Assembly: GCA_033439295.1 (NCBI GenBank)
Contig: JAVTLE010000013.1
Location: forward strand, 434,001-498,000
Direction: 5' to 3'
Length of the DNA: 64,000 bases
Source: Deuterostichococcus epilithicus
Taxonomy: Eukaryota; Chlorophyta; Trebouxiophyceae; Prasiolales; Stichococcaceae
Positions 26,240-64,000 of the stretch are shown here, in pieces. Each line of letters starts with the position of its first letter. Within the stretch, counting starts at the first letter, position 1. A program made the position numbers and the translations under genes. Below the pieces are notes generated by a model. The model had not been told where the DNA came from. It worked only from the letters and a program-made list of their open reading frames with translations, and made no database searches.

Positions 26240-28737
26240 TCACAAAACCAACAATGCCAGCCTTTCGATGTCTGCCCAGCCGTAATAGATGCTTGTTGCT
26301 AGCAGCATCACGCGTCTGGCTGCCGCACCATCATGAAGTTTAGAAAGCGCCGCCCAGCGTCTTTGCCGGGTCGGGCAGCCTTCCAACCAGCGCCCACATA
26401 GACACCAGGGCCTACAGCCTGCGAGCAGTGCAGATGGCTCTGACGGCTCCGTACAAATCTGCAAAGTGTGTCTCAGATAGCACACCCATGCAGCCGCACA
26501 GGTGCCCTTGATGGAGCGACATCATGTTGGGCAGCTGGCGGCAAAGTACACGGCAAAGCAGCCACTGGATAACGATTTCCACTGCTCACCCGTAAGTAGT
26601 CTGAAAGACCGCCTGAAAACGGCCACCGCGGCGGCCGCGGCTGCGGCCATGCAGCGTCCGGCAGGTCGCCCCCCGACAGCGCCAGCTGCCCCGGGTCAAC
26701 ATATTCTAGTTGCGCGTCCGCCACCTCCCGCGTTGCTGCACTCCATGCAGCAGTTGAGGCTTGAAAGCAAGGTGTTACTGCGCACGGTGCCTGAGCACTG
26801 GGGGCGTCCTGTTGTGGCTGTTTGGTGCACGACGCCTCCCAGCCTGGGACATTGAAGGCTTGGGGCTCGCAGCAGCACGCTCGTACATGCTGCAGCACCT
26901 CTCTTGGGGCTGGCCGCACCCCTGCCACTCAAGCCAGCCAGTCCAAGAGCGACCCATATTCGCACTGCGCTGCGGCCAGCCGCTGGCGCCGACATCGTCT
27001 GCACTGCCGCTGCACTTGGTATGATGGTGCTGCTCATGGTGGCGCTGAAGTGCAGCGAGTGCAGCTGTCAGCACATCACACAATGCTGCTGCCTGTGGCG
27101 GCAGCTTTGCACCACAGCATGCGGCTGCTCAGCTGCGCATCTGGTGTGATGCTGATGCTGCCCATGGTGCACGAGAAGTACAGCATCTGCAACATGCTGC
27201 ACGGCACCTGGCACGATGCTGCTTCCGATGGTGGTGCGGAAGTAGAGAGGGTACAGGAAGTCGCCCAGGCGGCCCTTGCCGACGTCCACCCGACCCAGCA
27301 GCTCCTCATTTTCGGGGTGCAAGAAGAAGGTCTTGGAGAAGCGGTCCAGCCGCAGCGCACCCGCCAGCCGGGGCGCCGGCGTCGCAGCGCGGCCCCCAAA
27401 GACGGCCACCTGCGCCCGCCATTACTTCACTTCATTGCGGCTGAGTACAGCAGCTTGTGACCTCAGTAGTCCAGATGGACAGCATGCGGACGCGGTGCCG
27501 CCGGAGGTTGTCGCCCTACCGACATGCGCCGCTGCCAGCGTCTCGAGAGAAGGAATTGGCAGCGTTCAGAGGTGCCTGATCTACAAGTACAAAAACAAGC
27601 AAATTCTGGTGGCCCGACTCCAGCTCAGCACTGCACAGCGCGCGGCGTCGGGGAGCCAACCATAGAGGGTCCAGTGTGAGGGGCGGCGGCGGTGTCGACA
27701 GAAGGCATAGGGAAAAGCCCCGCTCACCTGGCCGACCTCGTCGGGAAAGTCCTGCCACTGCGAGTAGCCGGGCCCGATGGCAGCCTGCGCCGCGGGGCCG
27801 TCTGCGATGTACCGCTCCGCAGACGTGCGCCACAGCCGCTTGATGTCGCTGCAGCACGCATCGAGGCACGCTCAAGCGCATTGACAGCGATCACGATGCA
27901 TGCCGGCTGCGCTTCGTGATGGGGAGACTCGGCAGCGTTGCTCAAGGCCAGCACTCGGGGGACCCACCCTGCGGTGACCATGTCGAGCAGCTTGGCCCGC
28001 AGATGCGGCGGCACATCCCGGATTGCGCTCCTGCACCAGCAAGACCGGAGCATGTGGGGGGGTCGAGAAGCCGTGTGTCTTTCGGCCGCCGTGGCACGGC
28101 ACCTGTGGCCTCTGCAGCTGCTTGGCATAGACAAGCAGGGGCAGGACTGACAGCCTGCATCTGACCTGCTGTGAGTCCTGTAGTTGGTTAGGGCGCATAG
28201 GAGCAGCGTTCACCACAGTGTCAGGGCACGGTTGAAGGTCGCCGGGTCGCTGGGCGCCATCACGTGCACCAGCTTCAGCAGGTCGGCTGCCCGCTTCAGG
28301 CGCCGCTCACCCTCCTGGGAACCGATTCTGTCGTGCTGCGGCGCGGCCTGACTAGTGGGCATCGGCTGCTGGGCGCCTTCAGGCAGGCTACGGGACTCTG
28401 AGGCACCGCCCTTGACGCCGTCGGCGACGTTGCTGTCCGAGTCACTGGACGACAGCGTCTGGGCATCAGACGCCGCGGCTGGCAGCCGCCGCGTGGATCT
28501 GACATGCCCGGCCTGCACCAGATCCGGCTTGTGGCTGTGGCACGGCGCTCGCGCGGCTGTTGTCGCGCCGCCGTCACGCTGGTACAGCCGGCGGCGCATG
28601 GCCGTCATGCCAGCTGCTCTGCTGGCGAAGCCGTAACTGGCTGCTTGGTGGCAGTGTGCAGCGCTTCGCCAATCCTGCGCGGCAGGCGCGCTGCGCTGCT
28701 GCCCAATGAGGCCGCCAGTCACCCACGCCATCGTCAT
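26240..28737 (-). CDS. Probable organelle-targeted protein, unknown function
   Basis: Starts at ATG 28737-28735. Exons 28737-28214, 28030-27968, 27848-27728 and 27409-27215 join in exact phase. A further exon around 26740-26590 (ADAQLEYVDPGQLALSGGD) and an open stretch at 26485-26240 probably form the 3' end. The first 100 residues are rich in Ala, Arg, Ser and Gln with few acids, like a mitochondrial or plastid presequence, followed by a Ser/Asp patch. The mature part contains LKRAADLLKLVHVMAPSDPA, RAKLLDMVTAGDIKRLWRTS, YIADGPAAQAAIGPGYSQWQ and LGDFLYPLYFRTT. No named domain was recognised. The first exon ends TG and the next begins G, rebuilding a Trp codon, which supports the chain. Its fourth exon has two degenerate copies in the following intron. 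Confidence 0.6.
27018..27190 (-). repeat. Two degenerate copies of an exon 3' end
   Basis: On the minus strand the real exon end (27250-27215) reads YFRTTIGSSI followed by a gtgcca donor. Two related segments follow in the intron, at about 27180-27145 (reading FSCTMGSISI) and 27053-27018 (reading FSATMSSTII). Spacing is roughly 70 and 130 bases, so this looks like a decayed tandem array. Confidence 0.7.
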
Positions 28738-29120
28738 GGGCAAGGTAGGGCTTGGTTGCCGTTCAAGTCTCGGGCAGGTGAGCAGAATAGAGAACTGATG
28801 ATCAGTCTCGGCAACACGAGCTTCAAAACAGCCGCTATACGATGTTTGCAGGACGGTTCGGTGGGATCAAGAGGCGCACACGCCGCCGACTCGGCCTCTG
28901 TGTGCACGATACAACAGCCACATTGATGTGCTCAAGCTTTGTGCAATGCCCCTTCGGTCTGCGCACAAGGAAGCTGCGACATCCCCCAGAGCCCAGACTT
29001 TCCAAACCCTTTGACGAAGCCTCGCACGTGATCAATATTGATCCTGATGACGCTGCAGCGCGCATTTGCTGTTCACCAAGTTTGACGTTCGCGACGCAAA
29101 TCATTCGATCAGTAACAGCT
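28738..29120. promoter_or_regulatory. Divergent intergenic region (candidate bidirectional promoter)
   Basis: 383 bases separate two ATGs that point away from each other, the unknown minus-strand gene at 28737 and the AKR2-like gene at 29121. No specific element could be assigned. Confidence 0.4.
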
Positions 29121-32100
29121 ATGGCAGCCTACGCCAGGGCCTTCTGCCCAACGACAGCACGGCAGCCGCCGGCATGTCATGGGACACAAGCACCCACATG
29201 CAGCTTCACCAGCAGCGCTACAGCGTTCCGGCGAGGCGCTAATCCACTGACGGCCGCGACTTGCCCCTCTGCACACCGGGCATGCGGGCGGCGCAGCCTT
29301 GTCGTGCGATCAGATGCGCGCTCCGAATTTGAGTCGAGGATCGAGAAGGAGGATGCTGCGCGAGACGCCGAGGCGCAGCCCAGCATGCAGCAGGAGATCG
29401 AGATGCTCAGAGCGCAGGGTCCGCCGGCTGGCATGAGCCAAGAGGATTTCGAAAAGCAGATGTCCGCATACGAGCAGGCCATGAACGACCCTGCGGTGCG
29501 CATTACTGGAGACGCAGATTTGCGTTCACGTATCCTGGCACCATCGCTTCACGAGGCAATTCCTGCGACATGCTGTTGATTCCTTGCGCTCGATTCTGTC
29601 GAGACGAACATACTGTTGGTACTGACTTTCCACTTGGCGGCGATGCACCAGAAATTGAGGAGCTCAAGCCTGCATGCCGCAGGCGCGCAAGCAGCTGGAG
29701 CAGATGCAGCAGATGGCGCAGCAGCCGGAGATGCAGGAGCAGATGGCGCAGATGGCGGCCGTCATGCAGAACAAGCAGCTCATGGAGCGCATGCAGGAGC
29801 TACGGGTGCGCTCCGTCGTCTGGTCATTTCTTGCCGCAAGGCTTCCAGTCACTCCGCAAGCGGACAACACTTTCGTAACCAATCGCAACCCCCTCAGACA
29901 CACCAGCACCGTGTTGCGTTGCCTGGGTGCCTGCAACCAAGCCCCGAGACCTGGATGCCAGGGCACATGTGCACAGTGCACACTGTGTGTTGCAACTCGA
30001 GGGCTGTGCTAGCGTTCCTTCTGGTGCTCCCTCGTTCAAAGATTGACCGCTGCATCAAGCAGTATCGGATTCATTGTTTCCAAGAGTCTGGGGTCCCGCT
30101 CTCTCTCCATGCATGCATGGTGCATCACCGGGGTCCTGCTCTCTTTCCGTGCATGCGTGATGCATCACCGTCGCCGTCGATTCGCGGATGCGTCAACCTC
30201 ACCTCCGCCCCTGTGGTACGCACAGGGGTCTGAACTATTGGAACGGATGGAGCAACTACGGGTGAGCACCTGATTCCTTGCAAGTGAAGGGGTTGGGTGT
30301 GAGGCACAGGCGGGCAGATGCCCAGCTAGCACAGTGCGACGTCACGGCCGCCACCCACACCACACCGTCACCCAATTTGGCTTGGCGGCAAACCGGGTGC
30401 AGCCGTATCGCGTCACGTGTCCCGGCATCAGGCCCTCAAGCCCTTGGGCTGCCATTCGCTTGGCAACCCCTTTCCACCGCTGGCATTCGGTCAGCCACCT
30501 GCGGTCCTGCTGCACAGTGGCGCACGTTCATGTCGAAGGGTCAGCGTTTGTAGTCACGGAACAACACAGAACCCACACACGGATGAGGTTCAAACCTAAC
30601 GCAAACCTCGCTCATTTGAGATGCAATGTGCGCAGGGCGACCCACATGTTGCGCCCTTCTTCGAGGCGGTGCAGTCGGGCGGCATGGCGGCGCTGCAGTC
30701 GTACATGGGCAACCCGGAGTTCCTGGCCATGCTGGGCGACAAGCTCGGCGACATCGACATGGGGCTGCCGGGGGAGAGCAAGCCGGCGGGCGCACCGGCG
30801 CCGCCGCCGTCCGCCGGCGCCCCCGGCGCGCCGCCGCCGCCGGAGATTGAAAACCTGTTGCAGGCCGCCAAGTGCGTGTTTTCCGCAGCAGCCGCCTGCC
30901 CAGAAGTCTTGCAGGTTCTGACAGCAGAAGCTGCTGTGCTCAGCGGTACTCTCACACGTGGCGCGTGGGATGGTGCTCGGCTGCCGCACGCTTCTGGCTG
31001 CGAGACGAACCTTTCAGCTGCTCCACCGGTGCAGCAAGGAGCAGCCCAGTGCGCCTTGCTGTCTGCGCCAGTACCGGCAAGGTCTGTATCATTCATCCTC
31101 CCACCATGGACCGAAGCTCCTGTGCAGGCCTGCCAGCAGCAAACTGCTTCTGTGTGCAACCTGTAGGTATGGCGACCTAGAGGCGACAGAGGATCTCATC
31201 GCCGTGGGGAACGACGTAAACGCCGTGGACGCCGAGAAGCGCACGCCGCTGCACTACGCCGTCGCCTACAGGTGCGCCACCGCACTGCTGGTGCAGCGTA
31301 TCTGCAGCAGTTCTCTGCTCTCGTAACGCGACGGACAAGTCGGACGAACTGCCAGTGGCAGCAGAGGTCGCATCGCCAGTGCAGCTCTGGAGGCAGGGCT
31401 GTTGTCCAGGGATATTGCCGGCACGCACACAGAAACAGCACTCGTAGAGCTGCAGCAGCAGCCTTTCCTGCACTCGTCGCGCTGCTGGCAGTGCCCATTT
31501 GGGAGCAGCTGCCCGAGGCCTCCTGGCAAGGCAGAAAACAAAGCCCATTTCGATGCTGAGCTGGGATCAACCTGCAGGCAACTCGCAGGCGACCCCGGAA
31601 TGGTGTGACAAGGTGCTGAACGGCGGCAAGCCAAGGGCAATTTGACGTATGGTTTCTCATGTAGACCATGGCAAACTCGTTCATTGTAGGCACATGGGGG
31701 TGGCGGAGGAGCTGCTGAGGGGCGGCGCGGACCTTGGGGCGACAGACAGCAAGGGTAACACGCCGCTGCACTACGCAGCCGGCTACGGCAGGTGCGGGAG
31801 CCCCTCCCGCGAATGCCGCCTTTTGCCGCAAAGGCACAGCGTCCGGCCGGCGCGCTGGCGGCCGGTTGCCAGCGGGCGGCGGCAGGCTGCCTGGGCGCTG
31901 ATCAGGCCGGCAGCGGAAAGGAGGGCCCACACTCTGCGCCTGGAGCAAGCAGCTGGGTGTTGCCTCCTGTTGCAGCTGGCATAGCGCAAGGGCAAAGCCG
32001 CATGTGGCGCATGGGAGGGTGTGAAGCATCCTAGCCAGCGTGGTGTGACCCATTCGTTGATGCTGTGCCCTGCATGCAGGAGCGAGTTTATAGCGCGTCT

Positions 32101-32447: not shown

Positions 32448-32804
32448 CGTGGGCCATGGAGACAGTGCCGAGTGGCTTTTGTTGCTTTGGATCTGACGCA
32501 TGTACGCGAATGGACATCACATGTAGAGTGTGTACTTGTACTGGTGCTCGCAGCGATGCTGACGCGGTGCAGTTGCTTTGCCTCGCTGGCATCGTGCCCC
32601 CTTTCCATCGGACGCGCGGTACGACATCACAGCATATTGTCCGACTTGACGTCCAAACAAGATCGTTGTTTCTTGTGTCTCTCTTGCCTTCCTCCATCCG
32701 CCATCCTCTCAACAGCCCGCGGATCGGCTCAGATCGTGCACTCGTCGGTCGTGCACCCCAGCTTGGTTTTGGGCCCTCCACCCCAGCCCCGAAGCTTCTC
32801 CGGC
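32448..32804. other. Intergenic stretch
   Basis: Lies between two plus-strand genes, the AKR2-like gene and the secreted protein. No coding exon is supported. Confidence 0.5.
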
Positions 32805-35280: not shown

Positions 35281-36180
35281 CTGCTGGCCAAGGAGCACTG
35301 CGAGGCGGCCGACAGTCTCGACGTCGGTTCCCGGCGTCGCAGCCAGCTGCTGCTCCGTCTGCCGGGGGCACATATTGTCTTACTTTACTTCACACGTTCA
35401 CACATCCGGTCACTGGGGCTTGGACGCAGCAGCCCGCGTGTCCGAGTCGTTTTCCATAATCCCAGGGGCTTCCTGTCGCCGAGGCGCTGCGTCTGACGAG
35501 CAAGGGGCGGCGCCCGACAGCCGGTGCAAGCGGCTGTGTTGGAAGCAGAGGGCTGCAGGCCCGGTCGGAACCGCTACAGTCGTTGTGCGCTGAAGCGGCG
35601 ATGTTCTCGGCAGCTGTGTCGCAACACAAACCCACCTCACGCATCTTGGCCAGCAGCGTGCTGCGAGCGGCACCGATGATTGCGGCGGCGTCGGCAGCGC
35701 CCGGCCGCACGACAAAGATGCCACCACCGCCACTGGCAGAGATGTGCGACGGCGCAGGGCTGACGGCTGCACCCGCACAGGGTGGGTGTGGCTGCCATAG
35801 TACGTCCCCCTGTGGCTGCCTGCGAGCGCAGGGGAAAGGAGTCTGGCCCAGCAGCACTCGCAACTCTTGATGCTAGCTCATCTGCGAATGCAAGCCAGAC
35901 ATCAGCCGATGCAAGCCAGTCTGGCCCGGGCTCTTGCAGTTCGCTTGGTGGATGGGAAGGGCGGGTGAAGTCGGCTGTGCAGGAGCCGCCACAAACAAAA
36001 CTCACGAACGACGTGCGAAGTGCCTCACCCGAATGGAGCCTGAATGGGAAAGCCGTCGGTCGTCGACGCCGGCACGCCAATACTCTGCGAGCCCCCCGCA
36101 GCGGCTGCCGCCGCCGCAAGCGAGCCCGCGCCTCGGATCTCTGACGCCGGTCCTGCCGCCCATACCAAGTAAGTGGGCGG
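35281..36180 (-). CDS. Weakly supported gene, unknown function
   Basis: Minus-strand exon candidates with good splice signals are about 35940-35860 (LASADVWLAFADELASRVAS), about 35760-35650 (GGGGIFVVRPGAADAAAIIG ending TLLAKM), a less certain one near 35550-35410, and 35358-35281 (TEQQLAATPGTDVETVGRLA). They read like an alpha-helical, Ala-rich protein. Neither the start nor the stop was located, and no domain is recognised. The last exon chains only if the preceding exon uses the frame ending QAP. Confidence 0.35.
35881..35922. repeat. 21-bp imperfect tandem repeat in an exon
   Basis: Two adjacent 21-base units sharing GATGCAAGCCAG/GAATGCAAGCCAG. On the minus strand they encode the repeated peptide WLASAD-V-WLAFAD, an in-frame codon-level duplication. 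Confidence 0.75.
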
Positions 36181-36395
36181 GGAGCTCACATGCCTCGTCC
36201 ATTGGTAGGCATGGACAGCTTGCAGCTCAAAGCACCCCAAGTTCGGCTGCTAGACCAGGCACATGGCCGCAGTACTGCATGAGCGGTTCAGCCCCTGCCA
36301 AACCCTGCACTGGAGCCGCCGCCGAGCTGGTGCTGCATGTGTGCGGGGGATTTAGGGTGAGGATATGCATGGGTCGCTGCCCCGGCGTTGGTCAG

Positions 36396-36577: not shown

Positions 36578-36615
<38 letters not shown>

Positions 36616-41288: not shown

Positions 41289-44200
41289 ATGATGTCATCG
41301 AAGAGCATGTCTCTATCAGTAGCCGCAAGCAACCCTGCTGACACTTGGTGGCGGCACCTCCCCCAGGTTGCAGGCGCGGGCAGGCGAGGCCTCGCAGCAG
41401 CAGCAGCAGCCGCTTCACAGAATCCAGTGTCCGCAGACCTGGAAATGCAGATCGGGCAGCTCAAGAAGCGGGTGCGAAGCATGCATGTGGCGTCCGTGCA
41501 CGTCGCGGTTCTCCACCTGCCCTGCGCTGCATTGCCGAACCAATTGCCTGCGCATGGCACGCGGCACAGCATCCAAATCAGGCGTTGTCGCCTGCGACAT
41601 GACTAATCTAGAATGCAAGTCCTGCTGCTACTCTCGCGAGCCAGCAGCCGTGGTTGTTGCATTGTGACGCAGGTCGGTGAACTGGACGGCGAGATTGCGC
41701 GGGCGCAGGCGGTTGCAGACGTGCCGGCCCTGCGCGCCAGTCTGGAGCAGCTTGAAGCCGAGGCCTCGGCGAGCGACCTGTGGGACGATCCTTCCAAGGC
41801 GGCCTCCGTCATGGAGCGCATGGGAGTCGTGAAGGAGGAGATTGCGGAAGCGGAGGCGCTCGCGGGCCAGCTTGAGGACCTGAAACTGGGCCTGGAGCTG
41901 CTGGACATGGAGGCGAGTGGAATGTCAAATGAATTCTAGGGTGCAGGGCTTGAGTGGACGAGTGGGCGGGTCCGATCGGTGCTGCTGCATGTTGGGCCGG
42001 ACAGCCCACTGCAGCTGCCAGTTGGCAGCCTGCGACAGGCGCCCAGGCCCGGGGACGGCGCTTTGCGGGCAGCATGCGCATGTTGTAGGGTCGGAGGCTG
42101 CATGCTGCGCTGCCGGGGCGGCTGTGCGCAGTCCTGGCGACGCCTGCAAGCCGGTTGCAATCAGTCATACCAGCGCTTCCTGCATTGTGCTGAGGAGGGC
42201 GGCGTCATTGCACAGGGCGCAGAGTCAGGCGATGCGCCGGGCTTAGTGGCTGAGGCATCGGCAACGCTGGCCAGCCTGGAAGCGGCGTTGTCGGCCTGGC
42301 AGCTGAGGGCGCTCTTGGGCGGCCCGTACGATGCCGGCGGCGCGGTCGTCACCATCCAGGTGCGAGCCTTCAAAATCTTGATGGTCATCGACCTGCCAAA
42401 GCAGTTTGCGCTAGCCGCCCGGAAGGTTGAACTGCTGCTTGGCGGACCTTGCAACGCGGGACACGCGGTGCCCACCATCCTGGTGTGACGGTGTTGACCG
42501 TCGCCGCCGCCGCGTACGCTGCCGTTTCGTGACCTTCCAATCGGCAGCCGGTGGGGAAGCGACTTGCCATTCGTGCTGGGCCTTGGACACTGGTGGTGCT
42601 GCCAGCCGGCTGCCATTGCGCGGCTCGAAGGCGGGACCCGCCAGCGTTTGCCCGTCACATGGCTGGCCTTTGCAGCATGCAGTCGGGCGCAGGCGGCGGC
42701 AAGCCTGTCGCACCCAGCACCGATGCCAGGTCTAGCGGTGCTGGAACCACATGGGACCACTGAATACCGCTGCGACCTGCAGTCGAGGGCGGGCAGCGTG
42801 GAGGCCACAAACTTATCGACCAAGCTGGAGCGCTGGACAGAGCCGCTTGCATTCAGACCAGAACTGAGACTTCACTGGCGCTTATGTTGATGAGCTCTTG
42901 AGCCCACCGTTGTGCAGTCGGGCGCCGGCGGCGTCGAAGCCATGGACTGGGCGGCCATGCTGGAGCGCATGTACGTGCGCTGGGCAGCCGCCCGCGGCTT
43001 CAAGGTGCAGACTACCAGTCGCACGCCAGGTGGGACACCCTCTTGGTTTCTGCAGCCTCATGTCTGTATCGAGCACGCCAGATTTTCCCCTCTGGACTCC
43101 ATCGCTCCGCGGGGTGCCCAAACGAGCCGTGCAGCCAGGCGGGCGCCTCCCGGCGGCAGCCCATAGCTCTGCTGACGTCCAGGCTTGTGCGATCGCGATG
43201 GACCAACGTCTCACTGCTGTCCGCAGCTACCCCCTGGCATTCGAGCGCCGCTGGCGGGCAGGCGGCCGTGAAACAAGTTTACCTGCAGATGGCAGGGCGG
43301 TACTCCAAACCCTGCATCCATCAAGCAGCTGTCGCAAACTCGCGAAATTCGCAACTTCCCAACCCTCGCAACTGCGCAGGCGAGCAGGCGGGCGTGAAGT
43401 CGGTGGAGCTGGAGGTGGCGGGCCGCTACGCGTACGGGCACCTGGCGGGGGAGAAGGGCACGCACCGGCTGGTGCGGCAGTCGCCGTTCTCGTCAGCCGC
43501 CACGCGCCACACCAGCTTCGCCGCCGTGGAGGTCATGCCCATCCTCGGTGAGAGTGCTCGCAGCAGGTTTCAGAGGGTGGCAGGGTTCAGAGGGTGTGGC
43601 AGGGTCTAGATGTCGAGCGTCACGCCAGCTTCGCCGCCGTGGGGGCCATGCCCATCCTCGGTGGGTGTGGCTCACCAGGGTTTGGTGGGTGTGGCGGGGC
43701 TTCCGAAGTCGAGCGCCGCACAGCTTGGCCACAGGGGAGTCGTGTGCCTGTGTCCTGGGTGAGTCGCCAGCAGGGTTCAGTGGGCGCCCTGCAGAGTCCC
43801 GGGCTGCGACCTGTCCCAGTTGGCCCTCAGGAAACCCGCATCTGAAGCCGGGGTGCAGTGGACATCACAAGGCTTGGTACAGAACCTGCAGTCACTCTGC
43901 GCCTGCCCGCGCCGCCCCCTGCGCCAGCACCTGGGACATCCCAACCATCAGCTCAGCCCCACCGTCACCGCTTCTGCGCCAGCAATGAGTAAATGGAACG
44001 CTTGGTCCCCGACTTCCCAAACCCTCCCCGAGGCACGCCTGGAGGTGACTGCCCCGCACGCCTGCGGCGCCGGCGCACCTGCATTCGAAACCATCTGACG
44101 GCTCTGAACCCTGCCGCGGCTCTGCACAAGCAGCTCTAAATCCTAAGAAGCCGCAGCTCTGCGCAGGCGACAAGGTCAAAGACGTGGACATCCCAGAGGC

Positions 44201-45760
44201 CGACCTGGAGGTCACGACCATGCGCTCAGGCGGCGCCGGCGGCCAGAACGTCAATAAGGTGAAAATCATTTACATTGTCAAGCTTGCCTCACAAACATCA
44301 TAAAGTCTGTCAAGTTTAATCATATCCCTTGCAGGTTGAGACGGCGGTGCGCGTGCGGCACATCCCCACCGACATCGCGGTGAAGTGCACCCGCGAGCGC
44401 AGCCAGGCCGCCAACAAGACCATCGCCCTGGAGCTGCTCAAGGTGACTGGCTTTCCATCACGAACAAGAGCATGAACATCCGGCACTCAGCATTGTCTCA
44501 TTGTGCTCGTCCCCAAGCTGCACACACGGTGCGGCAAGGGAGTGGGTGCGCGGCAGGCGGGCGAGCCTGCGCAGGCACTGTTGGGGCCCTGATGAAAATG
44601 ACACAGGGTGCTGAGAGGCGGGGCTCTGATTGCGCGCCGCCAACCTCCCCCGGTATCGATTGGGCTGGATGGTCTTGCCGCCTGCACCGCACCAACATGG
44701 CGGGACACACCTGCGCCAGTGTCGAGAACCGTCCGGCTCTCCGGCTGAGGCCCAGCCCGGGGAGCTGACACCAGCCGGCGTTGAAAACAGGAAAAAGAAA
44801 CACATAAAATTCGCACGCTGCCGCAGGCGAAGCTGGTCGTCATCGCACAGGAGCAGCAGGCAGCCGAGATCCGGGAGATCCGCGGCGACATCGTCAAGGT
44901 GGGCCAGCTTCTCGTTTTTCCTCCGCTGCCCCTGGTGGAGCCTGTGCAAACGCCTCGGGTGCCCCTCAGCGCCAGTCCATGTGGGCGACATGACGCTGAC
45001 GCAGCGCCTGCGCCATCCGGAGCCGACACAACGCTGCCCACAACCTGCAGGCCTCTTGTGGGCCGAAACCAACATGGGCACCGCTCGCAGCTGTGTCCGG
45101 TGCCTTGTCCAACCAGCACCAGTACCTGCCATCCTTGTGTCGCTGCCCGCACCCCTGCAGGCGGGGGAACAGGGAAAGATGGCAGCGCCAGATCTGCAAC
45201 TGAGTGGCTGCACCCTGTCGACACTGTGTTCCATCGGCAGTGCCCCTGGCCGCCCTGCAAGCTGCCATCGTGTCTGTGTGACAGGCGGAGTGGGGGCGCC
45301 AGATTCGCAACTACGTGCTGCACCCCTACAAGCTGGTGAAGGACCTCCGCTCGGGGCATGAGACCAGCAACACTGGTGCCGTCATGGACGGCGCTCTGGA
45401 CCCCTTCATGCAGGTGCGTGAATGATGAGACCGGCCATCCAGAATAACGTATGGAAGACGCCAGAAAATGGTGGTGGATGCATTTTGCGATGGACTGGCC
45501 TGCTTCTGCTTTGCTGTAGCGTGAGCAGCAGAACCGAATGGGTGTGCTCGCTTTACAATCAGACCGGAGGCAAGCTGCGAATGAGCCTGGCCTCGGGGAG
45601 GCATCTCAGCGGCAGGAGTGCTTGTGACGAGCGCCACAGGAGCCTGCATGATATCGCAAACTTCGGGCTGCGATCTAACTAGCAGCGCTGTTGTGCGCAG
45701 GCGTACTTGCAGCACAAGGCAGGCGGTGATGTTGCCGCCGCAGCGGTGGATTCGGCTTGA
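41289..45760 (+). CDS. prfB: Peptide chain release factor 2, organellar (PrfB-like)
   Basis: Ends translation at UGA/UAA codons in an organelle, probably the plastid. Ten exons join in exact phase: 41289-41471, 41673-41912, 42216-42359, 42918-43029, 43380-43547, 44167-44258, 44335-44442, 44827-44898, 45285-45413, 45701-45760 (TGA). The N-terminal 45 residues are a presequence. The coiled domain follows ([13 protein letters not shown] ... [13 protein letters not shown]), then [19 protein letters not shown]. The RF2 anticodon tripeptide SPF is present ([13 protein letters not shown]), which marks it as RF2 rather than RF1. The catalytic GGQ loop is intact ([12 protein letters not shown]), as are domain III and the C-terminal [17 protein letters not shown]. 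The second intron has a GC donor (GAG|GCGAGT). Introns 3, 4 and 5 hold degenerate copies of neighbouring exons, listed separately. Confidence 0.97.
42426..42487 (+). repeat. Exon echo of release-factor exon 3
   Basis: This intronic segment reads [18 protein letters not shown] in frame, against [17 protein letters not shown] at the end of the real exon (ending 42359). It also keeps a gtg at the donor position and then meets a stop. It is a decayed copy about 125 bases downstream of the original. Confidence 0.85.
42677..42712 (+). repeat. Exon echo of release-factor exon 4 (short)
   Basis: Reads [14 protein letters not shown], resembling the start of the real exon 4 with its acceptor (gtgcag then [11 protein letters not shown] at 42918). 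Located about 240 bases upstream of it. Confidence 0.65.
42777..42870 (+). repeat. Exon echo of release-factor exon 4 (longer)
   Basis: Keeps the ctgcag acceptor and then [18 protein letters not shown], against [18 protein letters not shown] in the real exon 135 bases downstream. Similarity fades after about 55 bases. Confidence 0.85.
43240..43310 (+). repeat. Exon echo of release-factor exon 5 start
   Basis: Reads [18 protein letters not shown], against [17 protein letters not shown] at the start of the real exon at 43380. Lies about 135 bases upstream. Confidence 0.85.
43608..43735 (+). repeat. Exon echoes of release-factor exon 5 end, two copies
   Basis: At 43618-43668 the sequence reads [16 protein letters not shown], against [15 protein letters not shown] at the real exon end (43508-43547). 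It is nearly identical at DNA level and includes the gtg donor. A shorter third copy (GTCGAGCGCCGCACAGCTTGG) lies at 43708-43728. The preceding stretch also contains short GGCAGGGTTCAGAGGGTG repeats. Confidence 0.9.
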
Positions 45761-46419: not shown

Positions 46420-49400
46420 TCAAGTGGCCATGGCCTCATTGGCGGCGTCAGCGCCTGCGCCGCCGGAGTCGAGTGCCTGCGGCGCCGCCGGCGCCTGTGC
46501 AACCTGACCTTGCACCTGCGAAACAAGGAACGGAGACGATTTAACGCGATCTCCTTCGAGTCTATGGGAAAGAAGGCCTACGCTTGGGACCGTTGCAGGG
46601 CGACAAGGTTGCACCGTTCAGATGGACCCCAGCACAACCATAACGAAGGGACTGCAACCTTGACTCGAACTGCACATCTGCGCCTTGAGGCGCAGTCCCT
46701 CCCGCCTTGACACACTGGGGGGGTGTTCTGTCCCCAACGATGCTGAAAGGCCCCCCGCCTGCGCCCCGAGCGCCTTGCGGTCTATCCCCTCAGACAGCAG
46801 CGCTCCAATCGAGCAGCAACCGACCAGAATGTAAGACGTTTGGGTCGGCATCAACCCAATGGCGCTCCCCCCACCTGCGCCGCGAGCGCCTTCAGGTCCA
46901 GCCCCTCCGACAACAGCGCCGTCCGGATGTGGGCCTCGCAGTCGGACGGGTCGGTGCGCACGCGGCGCAGCGCCTTGCGCCGGTGGTCGTCCAGCGACTC
47001 CAGCGCCGCACGCGGCACCGTCGACTCGATCATCTTGGTCTGCGCAAGCAGGGGAGAGGGTTGTAAGCCATCTGGATGGAGGAGGCATGTGGAGCATGGA
47101 GCAGCTGCCGGCGTGAGGGCGCAGGCGGCTGGCGGCGCCAGCTGTGGTCAAGACGCTGGGCGGGGGCATGCTGCCGACATGGACAGAGGTACCAGCCCCA
47201 GCGCCCCCGCTCAATAGTACGCTCGCCCGAGCGCCACTGCCAAGGTCAGTGCCTCGTGGACGGTGCCGGTGCCAAGGTCAGCGCTGGCCTCGGCAGCGCT
47301 CCTGGACTCGTCCCCTGCCAGTGCTGACCTTGGCGCAAGTCCAGGGGAGGGCACCAGCAAGTCCCGGTCGAAAGTCCTGCCCACCTTGAACTCGTTGTGC
47401 GCCTTCTTGAGCTGCTCCACCTCAACCTCCAGGTCCGCTATCAGCTTGAGGCGCTTGTCGCGGGAGCGCGCCGCGCTCTCCCGATTGGCCTCCTGCACGC
47501 AGCAGGGAGGCCCGGACACTCAGCAAGGCGGGCCCTGGCAGTAGTGAGCGGTGCAAGCAGTCCCACCTGCGCCTCTGACTCTGCTTCTGGTTCTGCTGGC
47601 ACTCCCTCCCCGCTACTTGCAGCAGGAAACACCACAGCCCATGCGAGGACACGGCAATGATCTGCATGGAGCCTCTTTGTCAACAGAAGGCCGCATAAGG
47701 CCTTCCATAACCCTCTCACACAGGTCAGGAGCAACTCCGACGCCGTCCGACACCGCATCGTTTTGAAGGCAAATCGTGCACACGAGCGCCAGCAGTGGCT
47801 GCCCGCGAGGGCTTGTCCGACATTCTTCATCGAATGATGGCCAGACAAAGGACCTGCACTCGAGGCCTCCTACAACGTTCGCAAGCATCATGTGAGCACA
47901 GTGATGGAACTGCAGGCATGCCCTGCAGACAGAGACATGCTGGACAATCCAAGGGGCGCACCTTATGCCGCAAGTCGCATGCCTCCCTCTGCTCATCTGA
48001 CAGCGGCAAGAGGATGCAATGCAATCAAGGGTATGCAGAAGAGGTCATTGAAGACACCCTGAAGTCTCAATAAGGCTCGCACCTCGCGCTCGAGGCCGCA
48101 GGCCTCCGCCCCTGCTCCTGTGGCAGCTACCGTGACGACTGAAGCACCGTCACGGGGGGGGGGACCCACAAACAAAACTGAACCCCAAACTATTACACGC
48201 ACCTTGCGCTTCAGGTCGCGGGCCTCCTTCTCCTTTTCCGACAGCGGGCGCCCCTTGGCGGCCTTGGCGCGGCTCCGCGCCGCGTCGGCGCGCGCGTCAT
48301 AGTCGCAGTCCGCCAGCGCCTGCGCCTTGACGCGGGGGACCCCCCCCTGGGGCGCCGCCGCGGGGATGTCCGGGAACGCCAGCGGCGCCCTGCCGCCTCG
48401 GCCTGAAAGTAGCGGGGCAGCGTGCAGGGTCGAGAGGGTCATCAGTCAGGGCGCAGGGCTTAGAACAAGTAGCAGGGGTCCGTCCGGTGCGCACTGCCGT
48501 TCAGCTGCCGGGCGCGCAGCTTCGGCGTCGGCAAGGTGTGATCCACGCTGTGTGCCATTGCCACGGGAGCTGAGCAGCATCAAGATTCGCACCTGCCGGC
48601 AGCACCGACCGTGGGCCGCACGCATCCAGGTCCGGCAGCTCCGGGCTGCCATGCGCTGAGAGGCGCCCGGCGGGCGGGCAAGCCTGCGGCAGCGAGCCGC
48701 AGCCAGTGTGAGCGCGACCTGTGGCGCTCGCGGCCCATGACTGAGAAAGTTGCGAGGCTGATGGCGCAGAGGGCACGCATCCATGTGCACAGCATCGGTT
48801 CCCGGAAGGAGTACGAGGATCCACCGAGTGGCGCGGAGGCCGCACCAGGCATTTCGAGTGCTTCTGCACGGGGAGGGACAGGCTGGGTGCCCGGCCAGCA
48901 GGGACTGCAGCGCCGCTGCCGGCGATTTGCAAGGCGAGGGTTGGAGGTGACAGTCGAATGCAGCGGGCAGTCGATGATGGGCTCTGAAGATCAGGCTCAC
49001 CAGGCTGGGTGGTGGCAGCATGGCGCCCAGCGGTACCGCGCCGCTGCTGCGGCCGTAGTCGCTGCTGGAGGGGCTGGCATCACGGCTGAGGCGCCGCGGC
49101 GGGCTGGCGTCAGGGGCCCCGGGGGCGGGGTCCAGCCCNCCCNGCAGGTCCACGCGCTGCCCAATGGGCGTGCCGAAGAGCGCGCCTGCCGCCGGCAGCG
49201 GCGCGTGCGAGCTGAACCGGGGCGAGCCGAGGCTGGGGTAGGCTCCCCCGGCCGAGGCTCGCCGCAGGGTGGTGTCGCCGCTGAGGCCGCTGGGCGTGCC
49301 CGGGTGGGACCCGCCGCCGCCAGTGCCGCCGCCGCCGCCGCCGCCCGCCGGCCCCATGGACCCGTAGCTGCTCAGGCTGCTGCCGCCCGGGGGCAGCGAC

Positions 49401-51597
49401 CCGGAGCGCACGTTGTTGTGCGCGGGCGCGCCGCCGTTGGGCANGCCACCGCCGGTGCCGGCCCCGGGCCTGAGGTGGCCGCCCTGCCGCGGGCCGCTGC
49501 CAGCGCGCACCGGGTAGGCCCCGGCGGCCGCGACGGCGGCACGCTGTGCCGCAAGCGCCGTCGCAGTGTTGCCGCTGCTGTGCATTGGCGGGTGCATGCC
49601 CAGCTGGCTGTGCCTGCGGCAGCAGAAGGGTTCGCCTGTCAGAGCGACGGTGGAGGCTGGCCTCGACATGCCCCTGGCGCAGCGGCCAGTGCTCGCAGAA
49701 CGGGCTGCACATAAGAGCTGGGCGCTTTGGCCGGCATGGAGGAATCCATCAACGTTCGCGCGCACACAATGCGTGGCGCTGCATCCTCCTGGAGTCAGTG
49801 CTGCATTTTCGGCACAATGTCGGCACAACTGAACAATGACCTGCCGGCGCATCAACGCCACAGTAGCCACGACCAGGACAACCTTCCTTCTCAACCCTGC
49901 AACCCTCATTCCCTGGACAGGAACCCCAGGGAGGCCACGAGCCAGAGCCGCCCGCGGTGACATGGTGGGCACTCTCAGGAGCTATCAACCCTGTCACTCC
50001 CTAACAGCGGGACCCCCTCGAACAGGCAGGTTCGCACCAGCCAGAGCCGCCCGCAGCGACAAGGTGGCTGGCCACCTCCGTTGAGCCGCTGCTGTACACG
50101 CCCAGGCCATTCAGCCCGTGCGTCAGCCCGGTGCTGCTGATGCCGCTGATAGAGGACGCCAGGCTGGATGTCGCGCCGCCCAGGCCAATCATCTCCTGCA
50201 TGCTGCCGCCACCAAACTGCATGCCGCCGCCAGACATCTGCATGCCGCCGGGAATGCCGCCGGCAGACGTCGTCCTGAGGCCGGCCGGGGAAGAGAGGTA
50301 GCCGCCCAAGTCTGGCGCCAGACGCTGGCTGCGGTGGTTCGTCCCGCGCGGCGACGCCTGTGACGTTTTCAAGGGTGTTGAGAGCCGGGTCTCGAGCACA
50401 CCGGGTATGCCCTGCTCCGAGGTGCGATCAGAGCACAGACGGGCCTGCTCAGCTTGGCAGCACGGTGCATGGCCTTGTGGAACATCTTACAGGCTCTGCA
50501 AGCGGAAACTTCCCGCCTTGCTAAATTGCCCATGCCAGTGGGCGGTGGGCGAGTGCTCCTCCGCCGCTGCTTGTGCACACGTGTGGACAGAAAGGAGCGG
50601 AGGGAAACAGCGCACAAGGGAGAAGAGACACACATTGTTGCTGCGGTTACGGGGGTCTGGCATTCCAGCAAAGCTTGCCGTGGAGGGCCAGGGGGCGCCG
50701 CCGCCGCCGCCAGCACTTTGTAGGTCCATGCCCAGGCCTCGCCAGATGTCATCCGTCGTCTTGCCCGCCGGCTGACCCCTGCGCATGGGATGCAAGATGA
50801 TTGATACGAAGGTCATGCCCACACGCTGGCATCCATCAGGCGCAATATGCCGTTGGCTGAGCCGACAGGTGCACATGATGCGGCCCCAACCTGGGCAAGG
50901 TTTGCACTTCAGTAACGCTGTGGTCACGGCAGGCTGGGACAGGGGAGAGCGCTCACGTCGGCTCCTGCTTGGGAAAGCCGGCAAATTCCGGCAGCGGAGG
51001 GCCGGCGGGCTGCGCCGCGGGATACGGAGCGTCGTGCTGGCCACGGCCGCCGCCGGCACGCTGGTGCGCCTCGGCGGCACGCATGCTGTTGATCAGCTCC
51101 CGGCCCTGCTGCTCCATGTCCCGGCTGTTGAGCAGCTCCTCCTGCAAGGGGCATTGGCGCAGCAGCGGTTGGGCGGATGGGCAACCATGGTGCAAAACTA
51201 TGGCGAGGGCTGCACGCGGCATGCTATAGCACTGTGCATGCGCATGCCAGAGTCAGGGGCCGCGAAGAGCATGGGACCAGACTAAGTCTGGGTTGCGGCA
51301 TGCTGCTGCAAGACCGCATTGTTGTCACAGCTGCTTCATGCCCAGCAATCTGCTAACAGCGAGCCAAGGGAGGGCAGCAGTCACAGCGATCGGGATTGAG
51401 AGGCAGGGCCCCCAACGCACCAGGTTGAGGCTGCCGAAGAGGGCGTTGCTCGTGAGCGAGCCCTGGGCTGCATCCAGCCCAGCCAGGCCGCTCAGCGACA
51501 CCGAGGACGGCGAATCCGCGGCCGCGGGACCCCGCAGATTGACCAGACCAGGCTGCAGATGTAAGCTGCCGCCGCTGCGCGGCATTTGCCCCGCCAT
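46420..51597 (-). CDS. bZIP transcription factor, group A (ABI5/ABF-like)
   Basis: Nine minus-strand exons: 51597-51421, 51141-50957, 50778-50634, 50357-50076, about 49603-49001, 48389-48203, 47492-47385, 47039-46875, 46515-46420 (TGA). The phase is exact except around exons 5 and 6. Two N-terminal motifs typical of the ABF family are present, GSLNLEELLNSRD and KTTDDIWRGLG. A long Gly/Ser/Met-rich region follows, with N bases at 49139, 49143 and 49444. The basic region and zipper are made by joining two exons: EKEKEARDLKRK on one, then EANRESAARSRDKR and LIADLEVEVEQLKKAHNEF on the next. The N-x7-R contact pattern (NRESAARSR) is intact. The C-terminus is helical (ALLSEGLDLKALAAQ), then Ala/Gln-rich. 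Land-plant group A factors mediate abscisic acid and stress responses; the role in algae is inferred only as stress-related. Confidence 0.9.
46655..46830 (-). repeat. Exon echoes of bZIP exon 8
   Basis: On the minus strand, about 46822-46752 reads SIGALLSEGIDRKALGAQAGG, against IRTALLSEGLDLKALAAQ at the end of the real exon. A weaker second copy near 46695-46665 reads EGLRLKAQ. Both sit in the following intron. Confidence 0.85.
47958..48124 (-). repeat. Exon echoes of the bZIP exon 6 end, two copies
   Basis: The real exon ends LSEKEKEARDLKRK followed by donor gtgcgt (48203). In the next intron, 48124-48076 reads AEACGLERE followed by gtgcga, and 48009-47958 reads LSDEQREACDLRHK followed by gtgcgc. 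Both keep a usable donor. Confidence 0.88.
49885..50075. repeat. About 99-bp imperfect tandem repeat in a bZIP intron
   Basis: GCCAGAGCCGCCCGC occurs at about 49940 and 50039, in similar flanking sequence (CAACCCTG...CCCTGGACAGG, then CAACCCTGTCACTCCCT...). Lies just inside the intron after exon 4. Confidence 0.7.
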
Positions 51598-58500: not shown

Positions 58501-61500
58501 AGCGCCCTGATTCCCTGCGTCCCTGCCTCACCAGATTTGGTTCCCCTATCAAGTCCATGGTGCAGCGGCGTGCCGCTGCCAGGGCCACAGCCGCCGCCGC
58601 CGCAGGCCCCGCAGCTGCGCAGCCCGGAGCCGCAGAGAGGGATGCCGTCGTCCCACCAGGAGAAGCGGTGGCTGTGACAGGGTCTGAGGACAGCGTTTTG
58701 GCGGCCGCTGTCACCGAAGCAGGCGCGGTCACCAGGAGCATAGCCCTTGGCGACTGTCCGGACATGATGGTGAGCTTCACCCTGCCACCGCCTTCCCGTG
58801 TGGTGCAGGCGACGCTGAGCTGGCCCTTTGAAGGCAACGTCTCGGTCAGCTGTGCTTCGAAGCTGCAAGCCTGCAGCATGCCGCTGCACCTGGCGTCAAG
58901 CGCAGGCATCGGGCGCAGGCAGCATTCCGCACACCCGAAACAACTCGAACGTTGCTGTGCGCCGTCATCGCCAGGAGCTGGTCACGGATGGCGCGGGGAC
59001 GCTGCTGGCCGGGGACCCCGACCGGCGCGTCATCGAGATCGTGGACCCAGGGCGGCGCTCTGCTTCCGTCAAGGTGGCGGGACTGGCGGTGTTGGGCGCC
59101 GATAGTGACGAGGGTGCGGTTCCACGGTCGGCGGGGTGTCTGGCAGGCTGCTCATCTGCAAGCTTTGAGACTGGCTCCTTTCGGATGCGACCACCGCCGA
59201 GTGCCCTCCCAACCCCTTGGCAGCTCAACATGTGACCGCAGCAACAATGCACAGCTCCAAAGCCATTACAGCTGAGAGCTGAGAACAGCTGAGAGCGTGC
59301 ACAAGGCCTTCGGGCACCTGTCATGCGCCAGGCACCCCTCAAGCTGACATGAGGGCGTCAACGACCAGGCCCTGGGCAGATCGGCGCTTCAGCATGCCGG
59401 TCACAACTTTCGTGCCGCGCAGATGAGGCAGGACTGGATTCCGCCAGCCTTGGTGCTAGCCGCGCCACGGCGCCGTCGCAGACGCAAGGCGGGGCACGGA
59501 ACGCGGCGCAGCGGCGCAACCGCGCCTTCCGCCACGCCCTCGTCCGTGCCGTTGGCGCGCTGCACTCGCAGTTCCTGAGGGAGCTGCAGGCGCGGCGGGA
59601 GGCGGGGGCGGCAGCCGCTGCCGTGGCGGCGACGGCAGCAGCTCCAGCGGCGGGGACACCAGTGACCACGCAGAAGGAAGCAGGGCAGACGGCGGCGCAC
59701 CTGCCAGCGTCTGCGCCCGAGGCGGCGGCAGACCAACGGCGGACGCGCTCGAGCGCAACGGCGACCGCAGATGCTCAGCCTGAGGCTGGGCCGTCAGCGG
59801 GCGCGCCAGCCAATGCTGCCGCCGGCCGCCGCCGCGGCAAGCGGCAGCGCGGCGGGCCGGATNACGGCGGAGCAGGCGCAGCCTCTGACTCGCCGGCAGC
59901 GGGCGAGCCTGCGCCGTCATGCGCTGCGGGCAGCTCAGAGGCACAGGTGGGGCGGGGCGGCAGCGGCGGCAGGAAGCGCAGGAAGGCGGCGGCGCCAGAC
60001 GAGATGCCCAAGGCAACCGATTTCGACCCGCTCGTGGTACGAGATACCATCTGCCTGCATGTCAAACATGTCACAGTCAATGGGTCCAGGATTGTCGGAA
60101 TTGTAACAAGCCGCGACAAACTATGTCATGCTCAGCACTGTGGATGCTGCCGAAGGGCAGCCACACTCGCTTGCACCCGTCACTCCTGTGTCTGGACAGC
60201 CGCCTGTGCATCTGATTGATGCCACGTGCCACGATCCAAGCACCAATGCTGCCATGGGTTGCTGCCGCCGTGAGGTGCTGCCACTGCGCCTCTGCGCAGC
60301 GGAAGGAGTGGCACCCGGATTTCGACGTGGAGGCTGTCACCCTCGAGGCGCTGCTGGCGGCGGTGGATGCTGCGGGCGTCACAGCGTCGCCGCCAGACGA
60401 GCGAGCACCGGCCGCTGGCGCCTCAGCCGCTGGTGCGCCCAGCGCGGCGGGTGTGTGCCATCTTTGCATGTGTTCATCGTGTGCCGTGTCCTGACATCGC
60501 GATTATGCATGTGATGGTACGTCAGTGTTGCGGGTGGCCTGATGCGAGGAATGTCATTTGCCACATGTGTCCAGCGAAGTTCTCAGTTGTGCGGGAAGGC
60601 AGCTCGTTTACATGTTGAAGTGTGCTTAGGTCGCCAAGTCGCAGGGGCGGAGGCGGCGCCAGATGCTCCCTTCGTGGTCGAGCCCAACTTTGGCGATCGA
60701 CGTGCCGCCCGGCCGCCGCAGGTGTGATTCTGCCTCAAGTCTCCGCAAAGCTCATGCCGATACCATCTGAAGACAACGGTCTCCAACGACCACGACTACA
60801 TGTGTCTCGATGCAGCTTTACGATTCCAAGCGCGATGCCCACAATGGCAAGCGCATGTCCGAGGGAAGTGAGTGGGTGTGCAGGTGCACAAGAAGCATCC
60901 GCCATGCACAGACACCACCCACATGGAGACGGATGCCTTCCTGCAGCACCTCCAGGTGTGCAGTTCATCTTAAGGTGCCAAATGTGCTGCGGTGAGGGGC
61001 GCTTCTGTCACCGATCGCACAGGCGGTGCCCCTGTCGTCTGTGTGTCGCACCTTTGCTCGAAGACGATCAACACTCCCTGCTCGATGTGCTGCTGCTGCG
61101 CGCCAGCCGGTTGCACAGCTCTGCTGCAGTGCGGTTTCCTGGAGTTGGGAGTTGTCATACTCAACTCCACACTAGCTCAGCATGCACAGTGCGCCATGAC
61201 TGCACGGCTGCAATGGGGGTCGTCCTTCGAGGAGGCTGCAGCCGGGTTGCACAGTTTCCGTCGTAGGCCTGGCAGCCACCAGCCCCAAGGCACATGCATG
61301 ATTTGCACAGGGGCGGCCACCGTGCGAGGGGCAGGCGGTGCACTTCCAGTGGCGGCCGCTCGTCACTGCGCAAAAGCGCTGTTGAAACACACGCGCTTGT
61401 CATATCGTACAGGAGCGGCCATCGTATGAGGGGCAGGCAGTGCACTTCGAGCGGCTGCCGGCGCGGGAGCCTCAGTACCGCGAGCCATCCACGCCGCTGT

Positions 61501-64000
61501 CGGCGCCAGTGCGGCGCGCCCTGGATGCGCGCGGCATAGACGGCCTGTTCGAGCACCAAGCCCAGGCGAGCTGCCGCCGCTGCCCTAAACTCTGAAACTG
61601 TGCCGAAGCAGACGGGCCTGCCCCAGGCAGTATGCCGCAGCACCGTCAGGAGGGGTGTCTACGGCATCGGGATCTTACACCTTCATGCCACACGCTCGGA
61701 TGGCACCTCTTCGGACACGAACACCCATCATCTTTCACAGCGAGCCCATCTTCACACTCAAATGAAGCCTCATGCACAGCGTTCCATCCCGTACAGGCTG
61801 TGGACATCGCACAGGCCGGGCGGCGCATGGCAGCGTCCACAGGCACAGCCAGCGTCGAGAGCCCGTGCGCATTTGAGGCTGACACTACCCCCTGGAAGCC
61901 CATGCCACCTCTCCGAGGCTGTTGACTCCTCCTTGACTTCGCGGCACGCAGGCTGTGGACATTGCCTGCGCCGGGCGGCATGTGGTGGTGTCCACTAGCA
62001 CCGCCAGCGGCAAGAGCCTGTGCTACCTGGTGCCGGTGCTGGAGGCGCTAGCGGCGGACCGCCGTGCCACTGCACTATTCATGTTCCCCACGAAGGCGCT
62101 TGCTCAGGTGCGCTGGGTCGTCGCTGTTCCCATTCTATTTGCCTAGGTCGAGTTGCGCGGCATGCCAAAGGAAGCGCTGCGCCACCGCGCTCTTCACGTC
62201 TCCCTGCCAAGGCGCTGGCGCAGGCAGGCCTCGACTAGACTGTAATCGATCCTCGAGAGTCTGCAACAAGCTGTTGTCGGCGGCCGGGGCTGGGCCCGGT
62301 GAGGCACGCCTGCTGAGGCATGCCACCACTGCATTGGGCACATGTTCCAGCAAGTCGCTGGGGCAAGTGCAGCTGAGCCTCGTCATCTGTGCAACGAACT
62401 GACCGCCGTCACTCTGCTTCTGTTCTGTTCGTCTCAGATGTTCATCAGCTTAAAAACTGGCTAGCAATACATATTCTTGGGTCCTTGGAATTCTATCTAT
62501 CTTCTCAAGTGCGCCCACTGGTGCCTTTTGTGTGCAAAGCCTGGGATGTACCAATCGCCTTACCTAGAGTGTCAGCAACTTGCGTCCGCATCAACCTCGA
62601 CCGAACCTTTCCTTTCATGTTCTCCCGTCCTCGCGCTCCAAGGCCGTGTCCGCTGCCGGACGGTGGATTATGGGGATACACAGCAAGGCTGCTCGGGACC
62701 ATGCTTGCTCGAATACAAGAATTGGTTGTTAGATGGGAGGCTTGATCCAATCTTTCTATCATAACTCTGGATGTCTTATGCTGCCCACAGGACCAGCTGC
62801 GCGCAATGCGGGAGCTGGTGCAGGCCGCCTTCGGCGATGACCGCCCCTTCGTGGACGTCTATGATGGCGACACCCCCAAGGTATCGACATGCTTCAGAGC
62901 AGATCATGAAACCATCCCCGAAGACAGCTCTCGTGGTTGCTCGTGGCAGCAGCAGGAGAGCTGACACTCCGAGGTGTCATAGCATTTCCCTGGCTTGGTT
63001 GGACCTCAGAGTCATGGCGCCGTAAGAGCTGTGTCGTCGGACTCTGCCAGCGCCATCCCATCCCCCTCATCATGACGCTTCACGCAGCAGAGCACTTCTG
63101 CTACTGGATTCATCCGGATCGCCTGCACGTGATCAGGACGCACAAGTCGGACTGCACAGGTCCTGACCGGCGGGCTGCCCCCCTGCCGCTGCAGTGGGAG
63201 CGCCAGGAGATCCGGGACCGGGCAGCGCTGCTCATCACCAACCCCGACATGCTGCACTGCTCCATCCTGCCGGTGCACCGCACCTTCTCGCGGCTGCTTG
63301 CGCACCTACGCTATGTCGTCGTCGACGAGGGCCATGCTTACCGGTGCGGGACACAGGGCTGCCTGAGCATGCGTTCAACTGCTCATGTACGTTCACTCAG
63401 TCGCCCGCACATGCAGCTATTTGGGCGTGCATGCATCAGGGAGCTGCCATGTTGAACAGGGATGCTGCCCGTCCGTCTCATCTGTGCAGCTTCTCTAGAT
63501 GCCTGGTGAAACGCCCACAGCTCTGAGCCCTCAAGCGCCTCCGGCACACCTGCCGTCACGACCTGACCTCCTTCCCCAGCAGCTGTGGCGAGTCGCTCCA
63601 CGCATCGACGTCTCAGCCTTTCAGCTCTCGTGCAACTTGGGTGTAAGGTCATCACAGACCCTCTCCAAAGATTTTGCAACAGCCTCAGGGCGGTGCTGCC
63701 GGCCCCCGCAGGGGTGTGTTTGGCTGCCACACGGCGCTGGTCATCCGCCGCCTGCGCCGGGTGTGTGCGCGGCACTATGATGTGCACCCCACCTTCGTGG
63801 TCACCTCCGCCACGGTCGCCAACCCGGAGCAGCACGTGCAAAACCTGCTAGGTGAGATGCTGTGCTGTGTGCTTCAGGCACAAGGCACAGCGTTTGCGGC
63901 ACGCTGAGGCGTGTGCACCGCTTGTGACGCTGCCTGGGGTCTTGCTGCGGAGTCTCAGCACGCTTAAGCCACCAGCAGGGCTGGTTGAAAACCGAGGGAG
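55578..64000 (+). CDS. HRQ1: HRQ1-type DNA helicase with ubiquitin-like N-terminus (3' end outside window)
   Basis: RecQ4-related 3'-5' helicase for genome maintenance. Exons recovered: 55578-55763, 55929-55991, 56114-56554, 56741-57188, 57313-57563, 57731-57904, 58116-58240, about 58610-58769, 58975-59073, about 59423-60036, 60300-60450, 60645-60721, 61413-61565, 61952-62107, 62791-62880, 63195-63343, 63712-63851. The first two make a ubiquitin-like domain ([11 protein letters not shown] ... [20 protein letters not shown]), as in plant HRQ1. A disordered linker and [20 protein letters not shown] follow. The helicase core starts [13 protein letters not shown]. Motif I is TASGKS, then MFPTKALAQ (Ia), [16 protein letters not shown], motif [10 protein letters not shown] and motif III TSAT. 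Motif II is DEGH instead of DEAH. The C-terminal RecA domain and the DUF1998-like region lie beyond the window. One intron has a GC donor (after 61565). Confidence 0.93.
61311..61372 (+). repeat. Exon echo upstream of HRQ1 exon at 61413
   Basis: GCGGCCACCGTGCGAGGGG and the following bases copy the real exon start (GCGGCCATCGTATGAGGGG at 61415) about 102 bases upstream, including the acceptor ACAG. The copy no longer encodes the family sequence in frame. Confidence 0.85.
61797..61895 (+). repeat. Exon echo of the HRQ1 Walker A exon
   Basis: Reads [20 protein letters not shown] then ESPC, against [20 protein letters not shown] then KSLC in the real exon at 61952. It keeps a TACAG acceptor, but the ATP-binding GKS is changed to VES, so it cannot be a functional alternative exon. 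Confidence 0.92.
62175..62226 (+). repeat. Exon echo of the HRQ1 motif Ia exon end
   Basis: GCGCCACCGCGCTCTTCACG through AAGGCGCTGGCGCAGG copies the real exon end (62069-62107, encoding [15 protein letters not shown]), about 110 bases downstream. Confidence 0.85.

Follow-up and report, generated by a model that had tools for sequence, protein, structure and literature searches.

Gao and Lynch, in 2009 (cited in PMC3443670), reportedly described internal gene duplication with the creation of introns. The echoes that we describe here, which are copies of exon edges lying in the adjoining introns, have in common with such events that duplications within genes involve parts of exons and introns and alter gene structure, but they are short, bound to exon edges and narrowly spaced, and no new introns came with them in the rows examined.

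Introns can also be gained when a genomic segment containing AGGT is duplicated in tandem, in which case intron length equals the spacing of the copies (PMC3443670, PMC2891723, PMC4974935). As in that route, an echo is a nearby copy with a splice site and the protein is preserved by splicing, but the length of the holding intron equaled the spacing in 0 of 44 rows of the predicted models, a non-zero remainder being left in 44 of 44. This speaks against intron gain by AGGT duplication, one of the outcomes put forward in the preliminary description of this DNA.

In rice, according to a review, insertions of 10–1000 bp can be duplications that are tandem, partially so, or not tandem at all, the last being drawn from DNA no more than 200 bp from the break (PMC7407515), and the review also refers to insertions from patch-mediated break repair (Vaughn and Bennetzen 2014, via PMC7407515). 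Echoes are likewise direct copies of nearby sequence, putatively tandem in some cases and accompanied by filler in others, and 35 of 46 exon-intron pairs have a spacing of 175 or less, within the limit of about 200 bp. In the passage concerned, however, the rice insertions are not said to be tied to exon edges.

Tandem exon duplication, as presented in another report, leaves duplicated exons near the original, with expression support and in some cases without annotation (PMC9013439). Echoes are also exon-like copies near an original exon, but instead of whole exons with both splice sites they are decaying and partial, the matched part spanning 9–97% of the exon with a median of about 46% (60 matches, the weakest of which may be due to chance), and codon positions and RF2 show no coding constraint on the copy. 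Dispersed copies, such as introners or transposons leave, were not found when 41 spacers were compared within our 244-kb sample, where they matched only themselves, bar five matches of 21–43 bases.

Our search of the literature returned no description of such echoes at such density, nor are any described in the passages on introns, exons and repeats of the Coccomyxa paper.

Echoes in the window

The window is a stretch of 64,000 nucleotides (C11:434001-498000) from a genome of 46.8 Mb in 21 contigs; at 13 positions of the window (e.g., 5468, 15184 and 49139) the assembly has scattered N bases. The density of introns and the splice signals resemble those of a green alga. Together with a further 180 kb (100 kb of contig C1 plus eight stretches of 10 kb, each from a different further contig) the window forms the 244-kb sample, on which a self-trained hidden Markov model produced the gene models. 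The gene finder converged on 505 introns with a median of 230 nt, and the consensus of predicted splice sites was CAG/GTGCG for donors and yGCAG/G for acceptors. Across all gene models, GC replaced GT at about 13% of predicted donors, what may be partly a gene-finder artefact.

The models were checked with Pfam for parts of six window genes and with PDB for RF2 only, and one RF2 exon end proved wrong. Pfam supported ankyrin repeats (AKR2-like gene), RF2, a DEAD helicase, RRM and OCRE domains (RBM5-like gene) and peptide deformylase, with bZIP just below the cut-off (25.1 vs 27.6 bits); the name HRQ1, given earlier to the DEAD-box helicase, is a label of the preliminary description. An ungapped comparison of the window with itself recovered the pairs named in the preliminary description. 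A gapped test of predicted window junctions, with thresholds of score 28 and p 0.02, was passed by 19 rows, and its p values are conservative because the control pool still contained the junction's own intron. It supported echoes in RF2 (42.8-45.3 kb), the bZIP region (46.7-50.1 kb) and the helicase (61.3-62.0 kb).

The RF2 (release factor 2) gene, on the plus strand, holds seven echoes. Homology to RF2 protein places one true exon end at 42307..42359, and a putative donor-side echo of it lies at 42430..42482 (spacing 123, 33/53 bases); the gene finder had extended the exon to 42482, showing that such programs may call echoes as exons. The exon start at 42913 has two acceptor-side echoes, the outer at 42678..42698 (of 42913-42933, spacing 235) and the inner at 42778..42833 (of 42913-42968, spacing 135, 75%). 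Other acceptor-side echoes lie at 43249..43303 (of 43375-43429, spacing 126, 73%), at 44025..44075 (of 44191-44241, 24 nt inside the exon, spacing 166, 75%) and at 45180..45215 (of 45291-45325, 81%); these three and the inner echo passed the gapped test. The donor-side echo of 43504-43556, at 43617..43669 (spacing 113, 89%), has its flank partly duplicated too.

On the minus strand, the bZIP exon edge 46867-46919 has a donor-side echo at 46751..46803 (spacing 116, 85%), and the edge at 48198 has both a near one at 48078..48107 (of 48198-48227, spacing 120, 83%) and a far one at 47957..48006 (of 48198-48247, spacing 241, 76%), the latter partly called exon by the gene finder. The exon edge 50035-50067 is copied on its donor side at 49936..49968 (minus strand, spacing 99, 88%). 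Two helicase exon starts on the plus strand have acceptor-side echoes, at 61307..61358 (of 61409-61460, spacing 102, 85%) and 61794..61868 (of 61949-62023, spacing 155, 77%). Except for the far bZIP copy, all of these passed the gapped test. The minus-strand gene at 26-28 kb has a single echo, donor-side, of 27204-27256 at 27012..27064 (spacing 192, 74%, gapped p 0.015).

Thus four of the six genes named in the preliminary description do hold echoes, and the RBM5-like and AKR2-like genes are weak cases. The RBM5-like domains close a gene model that stops at 15525, outside the range covered by that description; this model has a short-unit donor duplication at 10126..10181 on the plus strand (spacing 28, 93%, copy at 10126-10153) and two gapped matches of 61% and 68%. 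The AKR2-like gene gave one marginal gapped match (31345-31381, p 0.02), and its clear 40-base repeat at 30090-30169 is internal to an intron.

Frequency of echoes and controls

Exon edges of up to 60 nt were aligned with their own introns, a score of at least 18 being taken as a match. Among 474 predicted donors a copy was found for 22, and among 480 acceptors for 23, together 45 of 954 junctions, whereas matches to other introns were found for 0 of 954 and to shuffled sequence for none; the reverse complement gave 0 donors and 3 acceptors. At the same score, and with repeat arrays included, the 244 kb contained 106 direct repeats at offsets of 20-400 (17 at 20-60, 25 at 61-100, 47 at 101-200, 15 at 201-300 and 2 at 301-400), against two direct pairs over 2001 offsets at 2-4 kb, an excess of roughly 280-fold per offset. 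Inverted pairs at offsets of 60-400 numbered 8 in the 244 kb, and a 50-kb control from E. coli yielded 0 pairs.

Merging of repeat matches reduced 121 to 110. Four repeat arrays were recognized (window 1880-2260, C1 48400-49300, L013 8200-9000 and L015 about 6600-6960). They remain in the offset counts, own-intron junction test, merged pair list and exon-coverage list, and were excluded from the spacing, identity-profile, codon-position, telomere, spacer-origin, flank, splice-site and pair-class analyses. The array in a predicted intron at L013 8294-8940 has offsets mostly of about 72-80, and some stretches of 27-30 bases in it are identical.

Once the arrays are removed, 46 exon-intron pairs are left in the 244 kb. 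Extrapolated by proportion from this 0.5% of the genome, the total would come to about 8,800. Echoes were present in no fewer than 14 of the 41 gene models, and clustering by gene was not significant (P 0.195), although RF2 has seven. Exon-intron pairs aligned over at least 40 bases differ by 7-29%, and none in the sample exceeded 93% identity. The copies have thus decayed to varying degrees, and differences of this size exclude duplicated reads as their source. The controls (far offsets, shuffles, E. coli) and this divergence rule out chance and simple repeats, and also an assembly artefact, which had been named as a possible refutation. The echoes are real and extend beyond the window, and the original observation is confirmed in its general form, though not in every particular; the copies are local, direct and undispersed.

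Spacing, decay and coding constraint

The spacing of 25 to 240 bases reported at first holds as the range of the window, but 28 of the 46 pairs of the sample lie at 90-135, within a group of 33 at 75-175; two pairs are shorter and 11 longer, several of the latter being second copies within the same intron. Sets of several copies advance in near-equal steps (104/208, 120/241, 126/257) or in unequal ones (135/235, 151/260/393). Many introns, then, hold a degraded and seemingly non-coding copy of the adjacent exon edge about 100 bases away. The introns that hold echoes are long, with a median of 435 nt over 44 rows in which some introns appear more than once, the median of all introns being 230 nt, in agreement with the intron growth suggested in the preliminary description. 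This points to frequent local copying as a process that lengthens introns and leaves the protein untouched. This bears on where new intron sequence comes from: if about 1 in 20 junctions bears a datable scar, both intron growth and the fate of duplicated splice sites become measurable in one genome.

Echoes might instead serve as alternative exons, as mutually exclusive exons or as functional decoys for splicing. Nine long-spaced pairs are exon-exon pairs with a predicted intron between them, the RF2 echo at 42430-42482 was called exon by the gene finder, and the copies often include the real splice site, as had been noted, GT being kept in 11 of 17 donor rows and AG in 15 of 21 acceptor rows. 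In the same rows, however, copy and original agreed at the splice site only modestly better than two unrelated sites would. The copies are partial, and differences by exon codon position amounted to 110/629 (0.175), 91/631 (0.144) and 148/629 (0.235), a slight third-position excess that fits the expectation for a neutral echo beside a constrained exon, and this near-neutral pattern argues against alternative coding exons. Spacing modulo three was even (12, 10 and 12 of 34, by hand count), showing no frame preference and ruling out selection on reading frame as its cause. Recursive splicing at AG/GT was also rejected as the cause of the spacing, 6 of 17 donor rows having no terminal AG.

RF2 also provides the direction of decay. 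In five echo segments with 80 codons, 28 differ between exon and echo, and a bacterial protein (one homologue) agrees with the exon in 15, with the echo in 1 and with neither in 12, indicating that the echo is the decaying copy. Moreover, the RF2 homologue aligns without the echo peptide. The birth of new exons, another of the outcomes first proposed, is therefore unlikely, and we give very little credence to alternative exons or decoy sites as a general account.

Origin of the copies

We think it probable that error-prone DNA repair or slippage, acting locally, copied exon edges a second time and left the echoes as scars, which were tolerated through splicing. Each event would copy a stretch of about 20-80 bases from the edge of an exon, in most cases together with the splice site, and the copy would land roughly 65 bases out in the adjoining intron; some events would be plain tandem duplications, and most would combine the copied stretch with filler of unrelated sequence. 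The same event within an exon would break the protein. At an exon edge, the outer copy would come to lie in the intron and splicing would continue at the inner site, so that the event would be nearly neutral, could be fixed and would then decay. Repeated events could pile up in one intron, each adding about 110 bases. By itself, this account leaves unexplained why similarity stops at the splice site, why long-spaced repeats internal to introns are scarce (3, against 33 exon-intron pairs) and why the sample contains no fresh event, none being above 93%. The joints, where such repair could leave micro-homology, have decayed too far to show it.

Tandem duplication across the exon-intron junction, the mechanism first suggested, is a possible but on the whole unlikely general alternative. 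In its strict form, blocks of about 110 bases would be duplicated over the junction at random positions and their intron part would decay beyond recognition, in which case the spacer and the sequence beyond the echo should be alike. When spacer and flank were aligned locally, 34 pairs showed a small excess (26.7 vs 22.5). In an anchored alignment of 42 pairs (spacing 60-175, spacer of at least 20, intron-intron pairs left out), the mean z was 0.91 and 10 flanks scored in the top 5% of controls, where about 2 were expected, a result in favour of tandem events. But tandem events simulated at the divergence of the echo (0.12-0.15 substitutions per branch) gave a mean z of 3.7-7.8, and for the 20 pairs with at least 85% identity the mean z was 0.80. 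A pair-HMM gave positive log-odds for a duplicated flank in 3 of 42 (C1 19479, window 43504 and L013 3608) and values near zero for window 49936 and C1 79351, with a fitted homologous fraction of 0.02-0.04; forcing all 42 pairs to be tandem brought the summed log-odds to between -206 and -486 under nine settings. The pair-HMM may be too strict, since C1 79351 looks homologous by eye; flank homology is seen in a few cases, C1 19479, window 43504 and C1 79351. Both tests suggest that a minority of the events were tandem, the others being non-tandem or having lost their flanks faster than the echo.

How fast introns change bears on the same question. With 120 simulated events per class, pairs internal to introns were detected in 67% at equal rates, in 19% at a twofold intron rate and in 3% at a threefold rate, while junction pairs of the same age were detected in 84-94%. 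Since intron-internal pairs would otherwise be visible, strict tandem duplication is tenable only if introns decay at two to three times the rate of the echo, which is itself intronic. Fast turnover can occur here, as indicated by a tandem paralogue block in the window whose four exons are 69-92% identical and whose three introns have no detectable homology. The block lies at 643-1532 and 2386-3325, and the stretches upstream of it (201-392 and 1858-2049) are identical at 187 of 192 columns, what suggests conversion or uneven turnover.

The abrupt end of similarity at the junction could also reflect a junction-directed process that copies the exon edge and its splice site and nothing else, perhaps where hybrids of DNA with spliced nascent RNA end, and that adds filler between the copies. 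In 45 junction pairs with a spacing of at least 60, mean identity was 0.64-0.81 over the first 40 exon nucleotides and fell to background by about 70-80 nt, and on the intron side it was at background past about 7-10 nt, likewise in 18 pairs with at least 85% identity. Intron-intron pairs, nine short and three long, show the opposite spacing to exon-intron pairs (Fisher p 7.6e-6), and two of the three long ones (C1 19393 and C1 98750) are members of junction families. Spacers are telomere-like in a minority of cases, and these show a strand bias. Nevertheless, splice-site identity is close to that of unrelated sites, fast intron decay can mimic the pattern and a few pairs have duplicated flanks. 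We know of no enzyme for such copying and consider it distinctly improbable. A related reading, on which we place somewhat limited weight as rather unlikely, is that exon-intron boundaries limit a copying process, exon edges being re-copied outward in steps of about 110 bases; as exon edges and not intron sequence would be re-copied, introns would grow from their ends. Perhaps hybrids of spliced RNA with DNA single out the exon as the unit of breakage and repair.

As for the filler that error-prone repair would leave, spacers do not resemble the inner exon (20.4 vs 20.3). Local inverted sequence as a source showed no clear excess (score of at least 14 in 3 of 41 vs 3.4% of controls), and local direct sequence showed some (8 of 41 vs 5.9%), partly from the tandem cases. 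Telomerase filler was rejected as a general source, most of 47 scored spacers not being telomere-like; a few pairs have clear telomere-like spacers (L019 332, C1 35875, C1 78382 and C1 18096). TTTAGGG arrays occur at contig ends, among the places listed. Near intron ends, telomere-like tracts were found at about L019 395-444 and, in the joined C1 stretch, at 35933-35964 and 78458. Among 359 introns, such tracts follow donors on the G strand in 2.8% (z>2.5) and on the C strand in 0.8%, and precede acceptors on the C strand in 1.9% and on the G strand in 0.3%, with mid-intron values of 0 and 0.3%.
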